Origin: Candidatus Rifleibacteriota bacterium
GTDB lineage: Bacteria > Muiribacteriota > Ozemobacteria > Ozemobacterales > Ozemobacteraceae
Direction: 5' to 3'
Assembly (NCBI GenBank): GCA_012517355.1
Contig: JAAYVD010000074.1
Location: 1-64,000, forward strand
DNA length: 64,000 nucleotides
Below the pieces are notes generated by a model. That model saw nothing but the letters and a program-made list of their open reading frames with translations, searched no databases and was not told where the DNA came from. Positions 4,345 through 11,817 of this stretch are shown here, one piece after another. A program made the translations under genes and the position numbers. Every line of letters starts with the position of its first letter. Position 1 is the stretch's first letter.

Positions 4345-6519
4345 TCACCGGGCCGCCTCCCGGCCCATCCTCCGGATCAACGCCACCAGCACCGCCACCG
4401 GGGCGGCCCAGGCCCACCAGGGGGCCGGCCCCGCCGTGAACCACCCTCCGACCGGGTCCTGCGCCGGGAACCAGCCGGCGGTCAGGAGGACGTGGGGAAG
4501 CACGCAAGCCAGGTCCCATCCGGCCAGGGAACCGACGCGGCCAGCCCCCGCCGCCACCCGGCCAGCCAGCCACCAGCCCAGGACCAGCGCGAACACCCAC
4601 GCCCCCGAATCGCCTCCCAGCCCTCCGCGGAAGAGGACGTAGGCCACGGCCAGGCCCTGGGCACCACGTCCGGGGAACAGCCATTCCCAGCGTCGGGCCG
4701 CCGGGCCGAACAGCCCGGCGAAAGCGAGGCTGGCGGCCACGTTGACCAGCACCGCCAGCAGCGGCTCGGTCCAGGCCACGCCCGCCGGCCGCCACCCGTC
4801 CCGGCCCGCCGCCACCACGGCAGGAAGCCAGGCCGTCACGACCAGGGCGACGGCCAACCACCCGCCACCCCCGTCCACGGGGCGCGCGGTGGTCGGGGTC
4901 CCTTCCATCCCGGGGCCGGAGCCGTCCGCGCCGCCATCGAACCGCCGGAAGGTGACCGCCAGGCCGAGCCAGACCAGCACCACCAGCAGTTCCGCCACCA
5001 GGATGCGCCCCAGGTCGTCGAGCCCGTCGAAGCCCGCATAGGGTAGAAAGCCAACCACCAGGAGTCGCAGGAACCAGGCGCCGCCGAAGGCCGTCCCCAG
5101 CAGGAACGCCCAACGCCCCGCCAGGGCGCGGCCCGACCGCGCCTCCCACCACCCGGCCGCCCAGCCGTTCACCCGGGCCCGCCACAGCGGATACAGCCAC
5201 AGGAACCCGCCGCTCGCGGCCAGGGCCAATCCCCACCCCAGGGGCTCCTGACGGACGGGCCGCGGCGGCAAGGCCATCCCACACGTCTCTGCAGGGTCTT
5301 TGCCACGCCCCTGGCCGTTCTCCGTCAGCCCCCCCCGACCCTGGCGACGGGCCGCCGCGAGGGCCGCCGCCGCTCCGGGCACCCCCGCCCGGGCCAGGGG
5401 AGCCAACCGGCCCACGGCTTCCGCGACCCGGCCGGCCCGCAGACAGAGCTCCGCCTGGGCCATGCCGAGACGCTCCAGCAGCCGGGCCGCCGTCGCCGGG
5501 CCCACGACCGGAACCAGGGCCCGGATCAGGTCTGCCGTCCGGCCACCGGGCCGGTTGGTCACCTGCCAGGCCAGCCGGGCGGCCATTTCGGCCGGGGGAA
5601 GCCGCTCGGCGGCGAACCCTTCCCGCAGCCGTTTCCCGAAGGAATCCGCCAGGTCTTCCAGCCGCATCCGGCCTTCGATCAGCAGCACCGAGCGGAAGGA
5701 CCGGCCCCGGCGCAACCCCCGCACCAGCCGGCCGATCCCCTCCTCGCCGACCCGCTCCCGGAGCTGGCGGAAGGCATGCCGGGCCTGCACCTCGACCCCG
5801 GCCCCGGTCCCGCTGAAGGCCGCCGACAGCCGCTCCAGCGGCACCAGGCCGCCGGCGGGAACCAGGTCCCGCCCCGCTTCCACGTCGCCGGCGGCGGGCC
5901 CTTTCCCCTGGCTGACGAGCGCGATCGCCGCCGACAGCTCTTCGGCCATCCCCTCGTTGAACCAGCGCGGACAGTCGACGGGAAGTCCGGGAAGCAGCGC
6001 CCACAGCAGATGCAGATGGACGAGTTCGTGGACGATCACCCGCCCGGGATCGTCACGGGTCGGGTCGACGGCCAACCGGAAGAAATCCTGGAAACTGCCC
6101 TCCGAGCTGCCCAACTCCTGCAGGACGATGGCGGGCCGCAAGGGAATGGGCCCGAGCCGCGCCCCCAACGAGGCCACGGCGGCCGTCACCGCCCGGGCGG
6201 CGGCCTCCAGATCGAGGCCGGCCGGCCCGGCCAGCCAAAACTCCCCGGCCAGGCGCCCGTTCCCCTGCCCTTCCAGCCGGCGGCGCACCCGGATGGCGGT
6301 GACCGCCTCGTCGAGTCGTTGGTCCCCGACCGTCAGGGCGGGTGCCATCTGCCAGGCCACCTCGGCCACGCGGTCGAGGCCGACAAATCCTGCCACCAGG
6401 GCCGCGGCCGGCCAGAATCCGGCCGCCACCCCCAGCCAGACGACGACGAGCACCACCTGCCGCAACCGGCCGGTTCCCGGTGCGGTCGGGCGCCCCGGCC
6501 CCTCTGTCATTTCCCCCAT
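4345..6519 (-). CDS. HExxH metallopeptidase fused to a polytopic membrane domain
   Basis: A protein of about 724 residues. After an N-terminal transmembrane segment (VVLVVVWLGVAAGFWPAAAL) comes a gluzincin-like peptidase domain with VHELVHLH around residue 165. The downstream NEGMAEE motif supplies the third zinc ligand, as in the peptidase MA / M1-like superfamily. A helical Arg/Ala-rich linker leads to a C-terminal half of about seven hydrophobic segments (LLVVGFLPYAGFDG, LLVVLVWLGLAVTF, VLPHVLLTAGWF). The catalytic domain probably faces outward, with the polytopic half anchoring it; the substrate is unknown. The start is chosen at ATG 6519 behind AGGGAAG; ATG 6510 is an alternative. TATAGT on the minus strand near 6543 could be its -10 box. 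The membrane half was not recognised. Confidence 0.75.
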   Translation of the reverse strand: MGEMTEGPGRPTAPGTGRLRQVVLVVVWLGVAAGFWPAAALVAGFVGLDRVAEVAWQMAPALTVGDQRLDEAVTAIRVRRRLEGQGNGRLAGEFWLAGPAGLDLEAAARAVTAAVASLGARLGPIPLRPAIVLQELGSSEGSFQDFFRLAVDPTRDDPGRVIVHELVHLHLLWALLPGLPVDCPRWFNEGMAEELSAAIALVSQGKGPAAGDVEAGRDLVPAGGLVPLERLSAAFSGTGAGVEVQARHAFRQLRERVGEEGIGRLVRGLRRGRSFRSVLLIEGRMRLEDLADSFGKRLREGFAAERLPPAEMAARLAWQVTNRPGGRTADLIRALVPVVGPATAARLLERLGMAQAELCLRAGRVAEAVGRLAPLARAGVPGAAAALAAARRQGRGGLTENGQGRGKDPAETCGMALPPRPVRQEPLGWGLALAASGGFLWLYPLWRARVNGWAAGWWEARSGRALAGRWAFLLGTAFGGAWFLRLLVVGFLPYAGFDGLDDLGRILVAELLVVLVWLGLAVTFRRFDGGADGSGPGMEGTPTTARPVDGGGGWLAVALVVTAWLPAVVAAGRDGWRPAGVAWTEPLLAVLVNVAASLAFAGLFGPAARRWEWLFPGRGAQGLAVAYVLFRGGLGGDSGAWVFALVLGWWLAGRVAAGAGRVGSLAGWDLACVLPHVLLTAGWFPAQDPVGGWFTAGPAPWWAWAAPVAVLVALIRRMGREAAR

Positions 6520-6743
6520 CGGTCGTCTTCCCTGACGGCCACTATACACGATCCGCGACGGCCGCGGCAGAACCCCAGGGCCCCGTGATTTTCCTGCCCG
6601 GATGGCTCGGATCCCAGGCAGCAGGCAGGAGGATGGACGCCCCGGTCCCCGTGCCAGTCATGGCGCGAAGCCCCCGACCACCAGGTGACCCCGTGGCAGG
6701 CCCCCCGGAACGACCCCGGACGCCAGAACGGGGGACCGCCCCG

Positions 6744-6773
6744 TTGCCAGTCGGGCCGCCTCCGTGCTATGAT
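6744..6773 (+). promoter_or_regulatory. predicted promoter of tRNA-Leu
   Basis: TTGCCA (6744-6749) and TATGAT (6768-6773) are 18 bp apart. The -10 box ends 11 bp before the tRNA 5-prime end, the usual geometry for a tRNA promoter. Confidence 0.6.
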
Positions 6774-6784
6774 GGCTCTCGCCG

Positions 6785-6868
6785 GCCGGAATGGCGGAAT
6801 TGGCAGACGCACGGGACTCAAAATCCCGCGCCCGCAAGGGCATGACGGTTCGACCCCGTCTTCCGGCA
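6785..6868 (+). tRNA. tRNA-Leu (anticodon CAA)
   Basis: A class II tRNA of 84 nt. The acceptor stem GCCGGAA (6785-6791) pairs with TTCCGGC (6861-6867), with discriminator A at 6868 and no encoded CCA. The anticodon stem CGGGA/TCCCG closes the loop CTCAAAA, giving anticodon CAA for UUG codons. A long variable arm (CGCCCGCAAGGGCAT region) and a GGTTCGACCCC T-arm are visible. The segment from the anticodon stem onward (6812-6868) is duplicated at 11751-11807, so the gene is the insertion target of the adjacent element, which restores an intact tRNA at its left end. Confidence 0.95.
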
Positions 6869-6878
6869 GTGACCTCGA
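6812..6878 (+). repeat. attL: 67-bp att core copy in tRNA-Leu
   Basis: Identical over 67 bp to 11751-11817. It covers the tRNA-Leu anticodon stem-loop through the 3-prime end plus 10 bp beyond. The bases just outside the match differ on both sides, which fixes its limits. Confidence 0.95.
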
Positions 6879-6887
6879 GAACTTGAG

Positions 6888-6913
6888 CCCCGATGAGCCA
6901 CTCCTCATCGGGG
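6888..6913 (+). terminator. rho-independent terminator after tRNA-Leu / attL
   Basis: A 10-bp perfect stem (CCCCGATGAG at 6888-6897, CTCATCGGGG at 6904-6913) with a 6-nt loop, followed by TTTT and, 3 bp later, a run of five T. It ends tRNA transcription before the integrase. A different terminator of similar design lies at the matching place after attR. Confidence 0.85.
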
Positions 6914-6939
6914 TTTTGAGTTTTTGTGTACCAACCGGC

Positions 6940-6981
6940 GTGCATCTCAGGGTGCTAATGGGGGTGCAAACCGGGGTGCAA
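6940..6981 (+). promoter_or_regulatory. four 12-bp-spaced GTGCAN sites (candidate integrase arm sites, left)
   Basis: GTGCAT (6940), GTGCTA (6952), GTGCAA (6964) and GTGCAA (6976) occur in the same orientation at exact 12-bp intervals, each followed by a G-rich tail. Two more copies with the same 12-bp spacing lie near the right end (11645, 11657). Direct repeats at both ends of an element are typical arm-type binding sites of tyrosine integrases or their directionality factors. The left array ends 43 bp before the integrase start, so it could also mediate autoregulation. Confidence 0.6.
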
Positions 6982-7024
6982 TTCTTGAGGGCTTCGCCGA
7001 GATGAGCATGGGAAGGACGGTTCC

Positions 7025-8290
7025 ATGCACTACATCATCAAGATCGGCTCCAGACTCTTCTTCCGGCGAAAGATCCCCATGGACCTTCAGGGGGTTCTCG
7101 GGATCACCGAGATCCGGCGAAGTCTGCGCACCAGCCGGATGGACGACGCCAAGGCCATCGCCGCACACATCAACGAACAGGTTGAGCGGGTTTTGGTCGG
7201 CGTGCAATCCGGGATTCCGCTGGAGGCGCTCCTTCAGGGGACCGGGTTCAAACTCATCAAACGTCCGAAGCGGGCAAAGATCGCGGACCTGCTGGCATCC
7301 GTGCTTTACAAGCGGTATTCCGACGAGATGAGGACTACAAGGCAATGGACAGTGAAGACCTATCACGAAAACGGCATCGCGTTTGGTTTCTGGCTGGCCG
7401 CGATGGGGGACATGGCGGTGGGAGAGGTGACTCACGCTCAACTGATGGAGTTTCGGGCCATCTTGCAGAAACTGCCTCCGAATGCCACCAAGAGCAAAGC
7501 CACTCGGGGTCATTCCTTGAGGGAACTGGCAAGAGTGGAGCACCCGAGAACTCTGTCGGTCACAAGGGTGAACCACATCATGGTGACCCAGACAGGCTTT
7601 TTCAAATGGCTCTTTGACCATCAGATGATTGCCGACAACCCTGCCGTGAACCTGTTCCTGCCCAAGGGGCAGACCCGACCTGACGAAGAACGGCAACGAT
7701 ACTCCATGGGAGAGGTTCGGTTGATTTTCGACAAGACCGAGGCATATCGAGACACCCAACCCGAGCGGTTCTGGGCCCCCCGGATCGCCGCATTCACTGG
7801 TCTCCGAGTGAATGAAATCTGCCAACTCTACCTTGACGATGTCCGGGAGATAGATGGGGTCTGGGTCTTCGACATCAACGACCGGGCCGACAAAGACCTG
7901 AAGAACGTCGGCAGTCGTAGAATTGTCCCTATTCACCCTTGGTTGATAGAGACGGGGCTCCTAGAATACGCGACAAGACTACGTCAACAACAAGAGATGC
8001 GCTTATTCCCCCGACTACGAAAGCATTCCCGCAACGGCTACGCGCATCAGGTAATCGCGTGGTTCGGGCCATTCAACCACAGGAACATCATCGATGACCG
8101 CCGAAAGACCTTCCACTCATTCCGGCACACATTTGCGGACACGCTCAAACAGCGGCTCTGCGAACCTCATGTCCTCGCCGAGTTGCTTGGCCACCGCATC
8201 GAGGGAATGACCATGGGCAGATACGGTAAAAAATTCAACGTCTCTGTCCTGCTCGATGCCGTCAAACTGGTTGCTTTTGAATCGACGTAA
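7025..8290 (+). CDS. int: tyrosine-type site-specific integrase
   Basis: A 421-residue phage-type integrase that would recombine the 67-bp att sites. It starts MHYIIKIGSRLFFRRKIP, an N-terminal region common in tRNA-targeting integrases, followed by a SAM-like core-binding domain (residues 85-215) and the catalytic domain. Catalytic residues are visible: Arg in FTGLRVNEICQLYLDDV (near 260), His-x-x-Arg in HSFRHTFADTL (near 362), a second His in LLGHRIEGMT, and the nucleophile Tyr in MGRYGKKF (near 402). The start ATG 7025 follows GGGAAGG. Transcription runs away from attL, with the candidate arm sites just upstream. Length and motif order are complete, so the enzyme is probably active. Confidence 0.95.
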   Translation: MHYIIKIGSRLFFRRKIPMDLQGVLGITEIRRSLRTSRMDDAKAIAAHINEQVERVLVGVQSGIPLEALLQGTGFKLIKRPKRAKIADLLASVLYKRYSDEMRTTRQWTVKTYHENGIAFGFWLAAMGDMAVGEVTHAQLMEFRAILQKLPPNATKSKATRGHSLRELARVEHPRTLSVTRVNHIMVTQTGFFKWLFDHQMIADNPAVNLFLPKGQTRPDEERQRYSMGEVRLIFDKTEAYRDTQPERFWAPRIAAFTGLRVNEICQLYLDDVREIDGVWVFDINDRADKDLKNVGSRRIVPIHPWLIETGLLEYATRLRQQQEMRLFPRLRKHSRNGYAHQVIAWFGPFNHRNIIDDRRKTFHSFRHTFADTLKQRLCEPHVLAELLGHRIEGMTMGRYGKKFNVSVLLDAVKLVAFEST

Positions 8291-8336
8291 GATTTCGGGT
8301 ATCCTAGGAGGAGAGCGGTTCTACGGAGGTGATGCC

Positions 8337-8711
8337 TTGTCAGATGATGTTCGTTACCAGTGCGGTCACACCGCTCCTCGTACCATAGCATACCAGCCAT
8401 GGCACAAGTGTCCTGATTGCCACCGGGCCGAAGGTGGTTCCGCCCAGCGCAATGCCAAAGCCAACCTCCCGGCTCTTGAGGGCACTGAAAAGCAAATCCG
8501 CTGGGCCGAGGGCATCCGCGACAAAGCCTACCGCACCCTGTCGGCGTTTCTGGGCGAACTGGACGGGGTCACCATCCCGGAACTGCAACCGATGCTGGGC
8601 GACATTCGGACGACCATCGGGGAGGTTCTGCGTAAGCCAGATTCAAAATGGTGGATCGAGCGGAAGGACGTCGTCTGGCGGGATTTCGTCATGCACCCCG
8701 AGAATCGGTGA
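8337..8711 (+). CDS. element-encoded small zinc-ribbon protein
   Basis: A 124-residue protein of unknown function, 46 bp after the integrase. I chose TTG 8337 because a GGAGG site lies 7 bp upstream; the longer ATG frame would overlap the integrase by 35 bp. The N-terminus carries a possible metal site: YQCGH at 6-10 and CPDCH near 27-31. The rest is mostly helical and amphipathic (QIRWAEGIRDKAYRTLSAFLGEL) and ends with WWIERKDVVWRDFV. It may be cotranscribed with int. Control of excision or a DNA-binding role is possible but unproven. Confidence 0.7.
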   Translation: MSDDVRYQCGHTAPRTIAYQPWHKCPDCHRAEGGSAQRNAKANLPALEGTEKQIRWAEGIRDKAYRTLSAFLGELDGVTIPELQPMLGDIRTTIGEVLRKPDSKWWIERKDVVWRDFVMHPENR

Positions 8712-8798
8712 AAGGCGGGTCCCCCTTCATTAATCGGGGGCATCAAAAAGAAGAATTCTGGCTGGGGTTGGGGAACAATGCCAATCTGTCCATGCCTC

Positions 8799-8984
8799 TT
8801 ATCCCCTAAAATCGTCCTCCCCCAGTGGGGGCCAGCGCATACCCCGTAGTCTTTCAAGGAAGGTCATTGCCTCGACCAACTTCTCCAGCCTCCGCATCAG
8901 GCGTTCCCGGTCCCGCCCGTTAGAGCAACGGATGAGCCCGGCAAGTTGGGCAACCCTATCGAAGCCCATCACGGGCAAATCCAT
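8799..8984 (-). CDS. small hypothetical protein of the element
   Basis: A 61-residue basic, mostly helical protein (MDLPVMGFDRVAQLAGLIRC, then Arg/Glu-rich helices). A GGAGGG ribosome binding site sits 9 bp before ATG 8984. It is transcribed against the integrase. It could be the last gene of a minus-strand unit with the polymerase-like gene and the 61-codon zinc-ribbon gene. No family recognised. Confidence 0.55.
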   Translation of the reverse strand: MDLPVMGFDRVAQLAGLIRCSNGRDRERLMRRLEKLVEAMTFLERLRGMRWPPLGEDDFRG

Positions 8985-9027
8985 CTCGTTTGACCCTCCG
9001 ACATTTCTGCATCGACGGAGCAGGAGG

Positions 9028-9213
9028 CTACGGTCTCACCTTGTCCGATGGCTTCTGGGGCTCTTGATTGGTTGGACCGGATTGGTTCTGATCCATGGCT
9101 AGGCTGTGAAGATCAGGCTCGCTGGCTGGCCACATTCTGCCACAATGAAAGCACCGGTATAGACCAAGATCCTCGACGAACAGGGCATACTGGCCGCACG
9201 CGCACTTCTTCAA
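9028..9213 (-). CDS. small zinc-ribbon protein of the element
   Basis: With the TTG start at 9213, preceded by AAGGAGG at the right distance, the product has 61 residues and opens with KKCACGQYALFVEDLGLYRC and then FHCGRMW, i.e. two CxC/CxxC pairs of a zinc ribbon at the very N-terminus. The tail is Gln/Pro/Asn-rich and probably disordered. An upstream ATG (9294) would add 27 residues without visible motifs and has a poorer ribosome site. It lies between the polymerase-like gene and the 61-codon gene on the same strand. Confidence 0.6.
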   Translation of the reverse strand: MKKCACGQYALFVEDLGLYRCFHCGRMWPASEPDLHSLAMDQNQSGPTNQEPQKPSDKVRP

Positions 9214-9412
9214 TGGCTCCTCCTTGTTCGCAACCTCTTGGGGCTGGACCTGCCCGCACCAACCGGCGGAAATTTTTGTCCTATGGAACCCCATCCCACC
9301 CCTGATAATATGAGGAACGGCGATTAAGTCAAGTCGCGAGAGGCAGTATCTATGGGCCTTTCCGAGGATATGGTGATTGCAAACTATGCAACCATCGTCA
9401 TCGGCGCAACCA

Positions 9413-10885
9413 TCACAAAGGCTTTGGGATCAGTTCAAAAGGGATGCCCAGATCTTCGATTACCTCATCAATGCAGGCTTGCGGGATCGGTCCTCTGGTG
9501 ATCAGCCCGTCGTGCAAGTTCAGGAGCGGCTCGAAGCGGTATTTCTTGCCACGGACCGTGATGGAGTGGATGATCGCGGCCTCCTTGCCCTGAACGTCGA
9601 AAGCCAGAGCCGTCTTTTTTCGGGTGTGCGGCGTGAACGGCTTCCCGGTCCGGGGGTGGATGTCCAGATACAATGTCCGGCCAAGCAAGTTCTTGATGAA
9701 CGATCTGCCGCTGTTCCTCCCGGATTTCTGAATCTCGGCTCCCGCCATGATTTTCTCGTAGAGGATGTCGAGCGCTCCAGTTACCGGCAAGAAGTACATC
9801 CCCAGTCCGTGGCAAAACAGGTGCCAGTCTGCCTTCCGCATTTTCCTCGAAATTTGAACTCGAAGGTCGTTCAGTTTCCTTTGTTTGTCAGGATCTGCGT
9901 AGGATGATGGGGTCGGAACCGGCATCATCCCTAAATTACGAAGGACATTTTTCCCGTCAACGCTAGTCTTGATGCAGAAAAGCCGCTTAGTGCCAGTACA
10001 AGTATGTATCCCGAGTGGGAGCGCCCCCCGGAGCGGTCGAACTCTCCGGGGACCGTCCGCATTGTCCTCGGCGAGGTTCTTGGTTCCGGTGAGCGTCAGC
10101 GAACCGGAACCAAGAACCGAGCACGGTCGATGGAGCCGGATATGAATCGTTCGTTTCCGGGATCGACCGGTTGGGTTGGCCTTGCGTACCCTGATGGTAT
10201 AGATGCCGTGGTCCCGTGCCTGCTCGACCTTGAACTGGTCTTGGGCTGGTGCCGTCTGAACCTTTCCACCGTTGAAGATTGTCCCGTACAGGAGCCGCTT
10301 AAAGGTGCCCTCATCTGTCCTCAGTCTCTGGGCGTGGGTGCTGTTCTTGATTTTCAGGAAGGCTTGAAGGGGCTTGAATCCGGTGCTCACTGAGATATTG
10401 GTGCATTGGGATTTTACGATGTCGTAGTTGTAAAGATCCCCGCCGTTCTCGACCATGAACCCGGATAACACCGCCCGCCGAAATCCAGCCCATGTGGCTT
10501 GGATGTTACCGCCCTTCTCGCTGATCCTGCCGGTGATCGTCGACCGATACCGGGGTGAGTAGTTCAGGATGTCGGTGCCAGTCGTCTTTTTTGAACCGTT
10601 GACCATTGATGTGATGGCCGCCCGGACTTGTCGGAACCGCTTCTGCGCTCTGGCTTGAAAAGGCTGGTGCAGTTGCTTCCATCCAGCCAGATCTATCAAG
10701 CACTTCATGGCCGCCCCATGATCCCATGGAATGCTGGCCGAGGACAGGGCGGTGATGGCCTTCTCCTCCAGAGGGGTCACCAGCAGGTTCCTGTTCCGAT
10801 CCCGGATATCGTTGCCTTCCCGGCGCTTCCCTTTGGTGGTTCGCGTGAAGATGTTGATGGTCTGGGGGAGTCGGTTGAGTTTCAT
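9413..10885 (-). CDS. family-A DNA-polymerase-like protein of the element
   Basis: A 490-residue protein whose spaced motifs match the Pol I palm and fingers. Residues 118-129 read TGRISEKGGNIQ, like the TGR-x-S...PNLQ segment before motif A. Motif A is YNYDIVKSQ with Asp155. A motif-B-like segment reads KRLLYGTIFNGG (196-207), with Lys, then Tyr-Gly four residues later and Phe four after that, as in K-x3-F/Y-G-x2-Y-G. Motif C is LNLHDGLIT (His458-Asp459) near the C-terminus, where Pol A enzymes have HDE. No exonuclease domain is present. Residues of about 215-310 look foreign and contain a 16-bp perfect inverted repeat. I infer a replicase or gap-filling polymerase of the element. It could also be a divergent single-subunit polymerase of another kind; a structure prediction would decide. 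Confidence 0.6.
   Translation of the reverse strand: MKLNRLPQTINIFTRTTKGKRREGNDIRDRNRNLLVTPLEEKAITALSSASIPWDHGAAMKCLIDLAGWKQLHQPFQARAQKRFRQVRAAITSMVNGSKKTTGTDILNYSPRYRSTITGRISEKGGNIQATWAGFRRAVLSGFMVENGGDLYNYDIVKSQCTNISVSTGFKPLQAFLKIKNSTHAQRLRTDEGTFKRLLYGTIFNGGKVQTAPAQDQFKVEQARDHGIYTIRVRKANPTGRSRKRTIHIRLHRPCSVLGSGSLTLTGTKNLAEDNADGPRRVRPLRGALPLGIHTCTGTKRLFCIKTSVDGKNVLRNLGMMPVPTPSSYADPDKQRKLNDLRVQISRKMRKADWHLFCHGLGMYFLPVTGALDILYEKIMAGAEIQKSGRNSGRSFIKNLLGRTLYLDIHPRTGKPFTPHTRKKTALAFDVQGKEAAIIHSITVRGKKYRFEPLLNLHDGLITRGPIPQACIDEVIEDLGIPFELIPKPL
10075..10118. repeat. 16-bp perfect inverted repeat inside the polymerase-like gene
   Basis: GGTTCTTGGTTCCGGT (10075-10090) and its exact complement at 10103-10118 are separated by 12 bp, within codons of about 256-271 of the polymerase-like gene. 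The hairpin is far stronger than expected by chance. It lies in the compositionally odd segment between motifs B and C, which suggests an in-frame palindromic insertion. Confidence 0.8.
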
Positions 10886-10947
10886 GGCGGTATCGACGGT
10901 CCTTTTGTATATGGCGAAGGTGCAATGTCGGGGTTTGACTGCCGATC

Positions 10948-10992
10948 TGTATACTTCTCTGTTGACAGAATTGTAGACAAAAATGCATACTT
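10948..10992 (+). promoter_or_regulatory. promoter/operator of the antitoxin-toxin pair
   Basis: TTGACA at 10962-10967 is followed, 18 bp on, by CATACT (10986-10991), 18 bp before the antitoxin ATG. Two near-identical 9-mers, TGTATACTT (10948) and TGCATACTT (10984), flank the -35 box and overlap the -10 box. They are good candidates for operators bound by the antitoxin. The region also separates this pair from the divergent polymerase-like gene. Confidence 0.55.
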
Positions 10993-11009
10993 AGGGTGAG
11001 GTGAACATC

Positions 11010-11252
11010 ATGCCGACGACAAGAATCAGTACCCCCGCTCATCGCATCCTTCAAGAAATGGCTCGCCATACGGGCAAGTCCATGCAAGAAGTCCTCGATG
11101 CCGCTATCGAGGCATACCGGCGTCAACGGTTCCTTCAGGAAACCAGTGAAGCGTTCGGGGAACTCCGAGCCGATCCGAAGGCATGGAAGGCAGAGCAGGA
11201 CGAGCGCCACCTGTGGGATGCCACCCTGACCGACGGCCAAAAGAAGCACTGA
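11010..11252 (+). CDS. antitoxin, ribbon-helix-helix-like, partner of MazF
   Basis: An 80-residue protein directly upstream of a MazF-type toxin, with a 3-bp gap. The N-terminal half (MPTTRISTPAHRILQEMARH, then GKSMQEVLDAAIEAYRRQ) has the strand-helix-helix pattern of CopG/Arc-type repressors. The acidic, flexible C-terminus (ADPKAWKAEQDERHLWDATL) would wrap the toxin. ATG 11010 is preceded by GAGGTGA; GTG 11001 is a less likely alternative. It probably neutralises the toxin and represses its own operon through the operators upstream. Confidence 0.82.
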   Translation: MPTTRISTPAHRILQEMARHTGKSMQEVLDAAIEAYRRQRFLQETSEAFGELRADPKAWKAEQDERHLWDATLTDGQKKH

Positions 11253-11255
11253 GTC

Positions 11256-11597
11256 ATGGCGAAGATCCAACGCGGCGAGATCTGGACCGTGAACCTCGAC
11301 CCCACGAAGGGGCACGAGCAGTCCGGCGTCAGGCCCGGGCTGGTCGTGTCTGTGGACCAGTTCAACGAGTGTCCAGCCGACTTAGTGGTGGTTCTGCCGA
11401 TCACCACGAAGGAGAAGCGCATCCCATTCCATGTCCGGCTGGAACCGGCAGAGAGCGGTCTTCGGGAGGTCAGTTTCATCAAGTGCGAGGACGTGCGCTC
11501 CGTATCGAAAGAGCGGCTTACCAAGCGGCTGGGCACGATTGCGCGGCAGACCCTTGAAGCCGTCGAGGACCGGCTCAGGATCTTGATGGGGTTGTAG
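11256..11597 (+). CDS. MazF/PemK-family mRNA interferase toxin
   Basis: A 113-residue toxin of the CcdB/PemK/MazF fold. Family motifs are clear: RGEIWTVNLDPTKGHEQSG, RPGLVVS, VVVLPITTK, and IKCEDVRSVSKERL followed by a LG-x-I helix. MazF enzymes cut single-stranded RNA at short sites. It lies 3 bp after its antitoxin and is the last gene before attR, a common place for an addiction module that stabilises an integrated element. Full length with no damage visible. Confidence 0.93.
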   Translation: MAKIQRGEIWTVNLDPTKGHEQSGVRPGLVVSVDQFNECPADLVVVLPITTKEKRIPFHVRLEPAESGLREVSFIKCEDVRSVSKERLTKRLGTIARQTLEAVEDRLRILMGL

Positions 11598-11644
11598 GTC
11601 AGGGGTTGGATTGTTGTGCCGGAACTGGTATAAGATGGTTGAGT

Positions 11645-11662
11645 GTGCAAACGGGTGTGCAA
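11645..11662 (+). promoter_or_regulatory. two GTGCAA sites, 12 bp apart (candidate integrase arm sites, right)
   Basis: GTGCAA at 11645 and 11657 repeat the sequence, orientation and 12-bp spacing of the four-site array near attL. They lie about 90 bp inside attR. Confidence 0.55.
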
Positions 11663-11750
11663 ATCGATTTTTGCCCGTTGAAACTCAGGGAAAACTCAAA
11701 GGGCTCAAATCGGCTGTAAGCCGCTCAAGATCACGGTGCGGAAGCCCATT

Positions 11751-11817
11751 CGGGACTCAAAATCCCGCGCCCGCAAGGGCATGACGGTTCGACCCCGTCT
11801 TCCGGCAGTGACCTCGA
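11751..11817 (+). repeat. attR: 67-bp att core copy
   Basis: Perfect copy of 6812-6878. It holds only the 3-prime part of tRNA-Leu (from the anticodon stem on) without the 5-prime half, so it is not a functional tRNA. Confidence 0.95.

Follow-up and report, generated by a model that had tools for sequence, protein, structure and literature searches.

The window analysed in this study is a 64-kb stretch of contig JAAYVD010000074.1 from a Candidatus Rifleibacteriota genome, and its subject is a compact integrated element at positions 6812-11817. The element lies in a tRNA-Leu(CAA) gene and carries a tyrosine integrase, a divergent polymerase and a MazF-type toxin gene. A sequence-only reading of this DNA had proposed a 67-bp attachment (att) duplication in tRNA-Leu, an integrase, candidate arm sites, and the lack of capsid, relaxase and known replication initiator. 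The repeat, the integrase and the candidate arm sites were confirmed, and no gene of the lacking kinds was recognised in the scans described below. The features that define the element and its polymerase were as follows:

6785..6868, + strand: intact tRNA-Leu(CAA) gene of the host, the target of integration (ARAGORN; Rfam tRNA, 53.8 bits)
6812..6878, + strand: att repeat copy 1, from the anticodon stem to just beyond the tRNA 3' end
6961..6969, + strand: candidate arm site GGGGTGCAA
6973..6981, + strand: candidate arm site GGGGTGCAA
7025..8290, + strand: tyrosine integrase, 421 aa, with an N-terminal DUF6538 and a C-terminal Phage_integrase domain (Pfam and PHROGs scans)
9413..10885, - strand: divergent family-A-like polymerase, 490 aa (family profile and alignment; fold of a relative)
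9887..10249, - strand: insert in the polymerase at residues ~213-333, about 120 aa by comparison with the family (family alignment)
10075..10118: perfect 16-bp inverted repeat with a 12-nt loop, inside the polymerase insert
11643..11650, + strand: candidate arm site GTGTGCAA
11655..11662, + strand: candidate arm site GTGTGCAA
11751..11817, + strand: att repeat copy 2, right end

Borders, target site and integrase

The two att copies were perfect over 67 bp and 92% identical over 87 bp, with a spacing of 4,939 bp. The left copy was located inside the intact tRNA-Leu(CAA), with the tRNA rebuilt at one end. The runner-up direct repeat in the region had 28 nt and 75% identity, so the 67-bp pair was by far the best. 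The guanine-cytosine content of 6812-11817 was 56.6%, compared with 67.9% for the whole window. The integrase matched Phage_integrase (catalytic domain) and DUF6538 with E values of 2.1e-11 and 7.8e-13, respectively. The GGGGTGCAA pair and the GTGTGCAA pair each had a spacing of 12 bp and were the sole + strand matches in the 64-kb window; these arm-type repeats are presumably bound by the integrase. The att repeat at a tRNA gene, the integrase inside it and the arm-type repeats together identify a tRNA-targeting tyrosine-integrase element. For the seven open reading frames (ORFs) of the element, no Rep, primase, relaxase, capsid or terminase was matched in Pfam, PHROGs and NCBIfam scans. Furthermore, prophage genes (capsid, terminase, portal) were not found among them in Pfam and PHROGs, and no relaxase, as expected of an integrative and conjugative element or a relaxase-carrying integrative and mobilizable element, was matched in Pfam and NCBIfam.

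Integrase matches at E ≤ 1e-20 were obtained in 4 of the 56 genomes searched, the own genome counted. The closest integrase was 50% identical and came from G003, a genome that belongs to the host's own bacterial family. About 165 bp separate its start from the 3' end of a tRNA-Leu(CAA), and both have the same orientation, which is the layout of the window. The remaining relatives (37% and 43% identical) adjoin a tRNA-Arg and a tRNA cluster. Since these window-integrase relatives (loci L105 and L107) stand beside tRNA-Arg(CCG) and a tRNA-Cys/Phe/Asp/Val cluster, the integrase clade seems to change its tRNA targets inside one bacterial family. The two closest integrases are near contig ends (G003, contig C123; G014, contig C45), and their cargo lies beyond the contig. 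The integrase and polymerase modules seem separable, because G003 had no polymerase-family match.

The polymerase and its family

The frame at 9413-10885 was open across 490 codons. Its product had no sequence match in Pfam, NCBIfam or PDB and matched phrog_30690 directly at E 0.09. As the sole query, it found no relative in genome contigs, viral contigs or 188 other genomes. Its tblastn matches to a Calothrix plasmid and to jumbo phages were weak, and chaining onward from these matches joined the Microcystis phage Ma-LMM01 and phages of Vibrio, Dickeya, Erwinia and Yersinia. The chained phage proteins were those of PHROGs 30690 and 34692, both labelled 'unknown function'. A leave-window-out profile, made from the other 17 rows of the family alignment, matched the window frame with 115 bits (E = 1.8e-34), which places the protein in the PHROG 30690/34692 family. 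At E ≤ 10, the same profile reported no match among 698 other frames or among 200 shuffles of the protein. No publication naming this family was found in searches of an open-licence PubMed Central (PMC) library.

The alignment (A8) had 18 rows. It excluded the near-duplicates L016-L022 and L029-L048, L065 (which repeats L060), a broken Synechocystis gene, the later find pW9NP1 and a fragment from genome G728; loci carrying a stop were excluded from the structure alignments. Nine positions were invariant: Q129, N153, D155, K196, E435, H458, D459, G460 and K488. Family members were only 17-24% identical to the window polymerase, and the conservation of N153, D155, K196, E435, H458, D459 and G460 in 18/18 at such low identity argues for selection on the protein. 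In the tree, the window polymerase was on a long branch and its position was unsure.

The fold was approached through a relative. The model of L066 (506 aa) had a predicted local distance difference test (pLDDT) score of 84.3 and a predicted template modelling score of 0.68. The best 50 Foldseek rows for this model were all family A DNA polymerases (best E 7.6e-8), and so were the best 50 VIA rows. Its structure matches included Pol theta (Z 19.5; 305 residues, 3.5 Å), T7 DNA polymerase (Z 18.0) and Klenow (Z 17.9). By its kinship with L066, the window polymerase may be expected to have the same fold. The two catalytic aspartates, D155 of motif A and D459 of motif C, were identical in 18/18, and hhalign placed them, in a weak alignment, on the aspartates of T7 DNA polymerase. 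The Pfam model DNA_pol_A matched none of the 18 members at E ≤ 1. A duplicate of the host Pol A was considered and rejected, as the Pfam match was lacking. The earlier description of the protein as Pol A-like was supported by the family alignment and by the predicted fold of a relative, and not by any family-library match of the window protein itself. We regard the polymerase call as real by family and, judged by predicted structure, probably also by fold.

The N-terminal domain of the family was missing from the window polymerase, and elsewhere in the element none was found (best E 0.62). By reading of predicted secondary structure, this domain appears winged-helix-like, and it is perhaps an origin-binding or partner-binding part. 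Given that the Dickeya JA11 member has 141 residues ahead of the GR motif, as the exception among 17 relatives, the domain is a common feature of the family but perhaps not a universal one. A 401-nt stretch around the insert had a better predicted fold than its shuffles (z -2.75), and the clearest helix in it was the perfect hairpin. A self-splicing intron was rejected as an explanation of the insert, since Rfam gave no match to group I or group II introns at E ≤ 5. A second copy of the stretch 9930-10260 was not found in the genome.

Occurrence of the family and small genes of the element

Family members were rare. They were present in 6 of 386 Cyanobacteria genomes (the same six by two profiles) and in 1 of the 39 genomes of the host's phylum. 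Among 381 genomes around the host, they occurred only in the host and in G728, which belongs to another group. The G728 copy is a C-terminal fragment (L083, 7803-8084) and looks like a remnant; in its vicinity are, by reading, a primase-like ORF of 770 aa and large ORFs that resemble helicase/methylase genes.

Compact tRNA-integrated elements with this polymerase family recur in Cyanobacteria. In G532 (L062), an 8.77-kb element at tRNA-Glu with a 49-bp perfect repeat carried a tyrosine integrase, a methylase (N6_Mtase), a small resolvase and the polymerase. In G527 (L063), an 11.33-kb element at tRNA-Ala with a 158-bp perfect repeat carried a tyrosine integrase and the polymerase; 15 tandem copies with a spacing of 123 bp adjoin it (L063, 1546-3567). 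The search for the same gene set at tRNA genes of other genomes, which had been proposed as a check, recovered the combination of polymerase and integrase and not the whole gene set. In G231 and G434, the polymerase was near a tyrosine integrase in prophage regions; a Terminase_6N-type gene was matched in G231, and a similar ORF in G434 was judged by its sequence start alone. In G247, the polymerase was beside ORFs that by reading resemble tail genes. The sequence-only reading would have given way if larger relatives showed the element to be a decayed prophage or conjugative element. This applies in part to the polymerase gene, which has relatives in prophage regions, but for the element as a whole a larger relative was not found.

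The family also occurred on plasmids. The 13.7-kb Calothrix plasmid6 (AP018296.1, L002) carried a family member together with a large serine recombinase and a weak match to a P-loop ATPase, and no Rep was recognised among the 10 proteins scanned in Pfam and the 10 in PHROGs, of 25 annotated. At 5275-8170 of this plasmid, a run of small ORFs precedes an ORF of 399 aa that weakly matches HerA/DUF87; we take this order of genes to recall filamentous-phage replicative forms. In the 7.2-kb Polaromonas plasmid pW9NP1 (NZ_MG869627.1, L108), the family gene (37-1653, annotated hypothetical) ended 10 bp upstream of the RepA_C gene (1664-2497), and its product matched the family profile at E 2.6e-27 in a single-sequence search. 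The copy on the Synechocystis B12 plasmid (L003; CP101716.1, 3581-5201) was broken into two frames. In addition, 10 of the 12 viral contigs checked that match Ma-LMM01 gp030 showed, in the annotated frame, a stop at codon 12 (L029, L031-L034, L036, L038, L040, L042 and L043), and the annotated gp030 start is therefore probably too early.

The remaining genes of the element were small:

8256..8711, + strand: zinc-ribbon-like protein, up to 151 aa, phrog_16123 of unknown function (PHROGs 1.1e-11; Cys pairs)
8799..8984, - strand: 61-aa open frame, weak gene candidate (openness only)
9028..9294, - strand: zinc-ribbon-like protein, 88 aa (Cys pairs in the translation)
11001..11252, + strand: antitoxin candidate, 83 aa, upstream of mazF (weak Pfam matches: PSK_trans_fac 0.0038, RHH_1 0.097)
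11256..11597, + strand: MazF/PemK-like toxin, 113 aa (PemK_toxin 1.1e-32; Pfam, PHROGs and NCBIfam scans)

Three zinc-ribbon-like or basic proteins had been suggested. Cys pairs supported those at 8256-8711 and 9028-9294, and the third, at 8799-8984, was an open frame only. In Pfam, PHROGs and NCBIfam, the 61-aa frame had no family match and the 88-aa ORF no significant one. For the suggested MazF addiction module, the toxin identity was clear, and the antitoxin partner is only plausible.

Proposed replication of the element and comparison with known systems

In small integrative elements and satellites, a Rep or primase gene is usually present. In the window element, the polymerase was the only recognisable replication gene. 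This agrees with what had been read from the sequence, except that the gene belongs to a divergent mobile-element family and is no stray host-type Pol A. On balance, we favour an integrative element, probably dependent on a helper, whose excised circle is copied with a divergent family-A-fold polymerase of its own. The tyrosine integrase would excise the element at the 67-bp att core of tRNA-Leu(CAA), the excised circle would be copied by or with the polymerase, and the MazEF-type pair would stabilise the element. The missing N-terminal domain may be replaced by one of the element's small zinc-ribbon proteins or by a host factor, and the initiator would be a small unrecognised protein (for example, one of the zinc-ribbon proteins) or likewise a host factor. 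Because the pW9NP1 gene adjoins repA, the polymerase may act downstream of an initiator or as its partner, and not as a stand-alone replication system. No transfer or packaging gene was recognised in the element, so transfer would depend on a helper phage or a conjugative element, or else on transformation.

Several results weigh against this interpretation. Genome searches around the host recovered no second copy of the complete element, and no empty site was seen; the stretches around relatives of a downstream gene in G004, G005 and G001 were without tRNA-Leu. Structure prediction, which had been proposed as a check, gave the usable L066 model, whereas the AlphaFold model of the window polymerase itself was unusable (pLDDT 39.6). 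The hhalign comparison of the 18-row alignment with DNA polymerases was motif-consistent and weak (E 0.0016, probability 16%), and two other alignments gave 0.12 and 0.16 against canonical Pol A. Canonical family A polymerases have HDE in motif C and DYSQIE in motif A. Motif C was HDG in 18/18, and the protein is therefore described as a divergent relative with the family A fold and not as a canonical Pol A. Moreover, the window polymerase had 119 residues ahead of the GR motif compared with 224-315 in 16 of 17 relatives, and its motif B lysine was separated from the QGxE motif by 239 residues, compared with 82-166 in relatives. The short N-terminus and the long insert could mean compaction or decay. 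Finally, the pW9NP1 gene accompanies a Rep, so the polymerase may not suffice alone.

Some of these results are also what a remnant would show. A temperate phage, or a larger plasmid that had integrated, could have been reduced by deletion to the ends, the integrase, a truncated replication polymerase and the addiction module. The lost N-terminal domain and the insert fit such a history, as do the prophage neighbourhoods in G231 and G434, the terminase-type gene in G231 and the lack of a relative of the whole element. However, both att copies are perfect, the integrase, polymerase and MazF frames are intact, every invariant polymerase residue is kept, and paired arm sites are present at both ends. 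Compact tRNA-integrated elements with the same family exist elsewhere as well. We consider a remnant rather unlikely. The polymerase could also be cargo, serving for example in repair, defence or interference with a helper phage, in which case copying of the element would be passive or carried out by the host. In jumbo phages it is one gene among hundreds, and pW9NP1 has its own RepA_C initiator. Yet on pW9NP1 the gene adjoins repA, in small replicons (7.2, 8.8 and 13.7 kb) it is among few enzymes, and no other replication gene was recognised in the window element in Pfam, PHROGs and NCBIfam; a cargo role appears quite improbable. The HDG of motif C, and a motif A spacing unlike DYSQIE, might instead point to a T7-type single-subunit RNA polymerase or another non-DNA-polymerase relative of the family A palm. 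This is very hard to reconcile with the L066 model, whose best 50 rows in both structure searches were family A DNA polymerases, and with the profile comparison, in which the T7/SP6/phiKMV RNA polymerases reached E 0.35 against 0.0016 for DNA polymerases.

The claim of an undescribed element type is best recast: the element appears as a small member of scattered replicons that share an unnamed polymerase family. A broader proposal, which we put forward tentatively and think doubtful, is a replicon class built on one protein that joins a DNA-binding-like N-terminal domain to a family-A-fold HDG polymerase, possibly with a primase-free start. Such a class would drive tRNA-integrated elements, plasmids and phages across several phyla, and the window element would be its most reduced version (4.9 kb, core only). 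The family is nameless in Pfam and 'unknown' in PHROGs, and it occurs in phages, plasmids and integrated elements. If the polymerase replicates these elements, a function that can be tested would be assigned to a dark protein family, and a new replication route would be added for mobile elements.

Among cellular enzymes, a survey of bacterial DNA polymerases distinguishes, in the parts that treat their classes, PolA1, PolA2, PolA3 and a PolA1-like group (PMC12926913). The L066 model has the polymerase core fold in common with PolA1, PolA2 and PolA3 as described there. The window family differs from them in the absent DNA_pol_A match, in HDG for HDE, and in that the exonuclease domain was unmatched. 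The cyanobacterial CyRepX/CyRepA Reps were rejected as the identity of the polymerase, being helicase-type in the relevant passages (PMC10899382). In its excerpted text, a review of helper-dependent elements does not use the word 'polymerase' (PMC11389934). The PICMI search model, as outlined in PMC10803314, comprises an integrase, AlpA, a DUF3987/DUF5906 primase, a Fis regulator gene and a fis site. Like the window element, PICMI satellites are described in that outline as very small, integrase-carrying and without capsid-remodelling genes (PMC10803314). In contrast, AlpA and the primase had no Pfam match in the seven ORFs of the window element, which has a polymerase instead and a tRNA-Leu site. 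In the passages on pW9NP1 in PMC6015842, the plasmid is classed RepA_C and a polymerase-family gene is not mentioned. It shares the polymerase family with the window element, but by that account it is an autonomous 7.2-kb plasmid with RepA_C and ParA and is not integrated. The PHROG 30690/34692 proteins of Erwinia, Dickeya, Yersinia and Vibrio jumbo phages and of Ma-LMM01 belong to the same polymerase family; they are labelled 'hypothetical', occur as one gene per 160-270 kb genome and mostly have the N-terminal domain. The G532 and G527 elements, for which we know of no published name, are larger than the window element, with other cargo, a polymerase that has the N-terminal domain, and integrases that showed no close relation to the window integrase in tblastn. 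Nevertheless, they share with it a perfect att repeat at a tRNA gene, a tyrosine integrase just inside one end and the same polymerase family.

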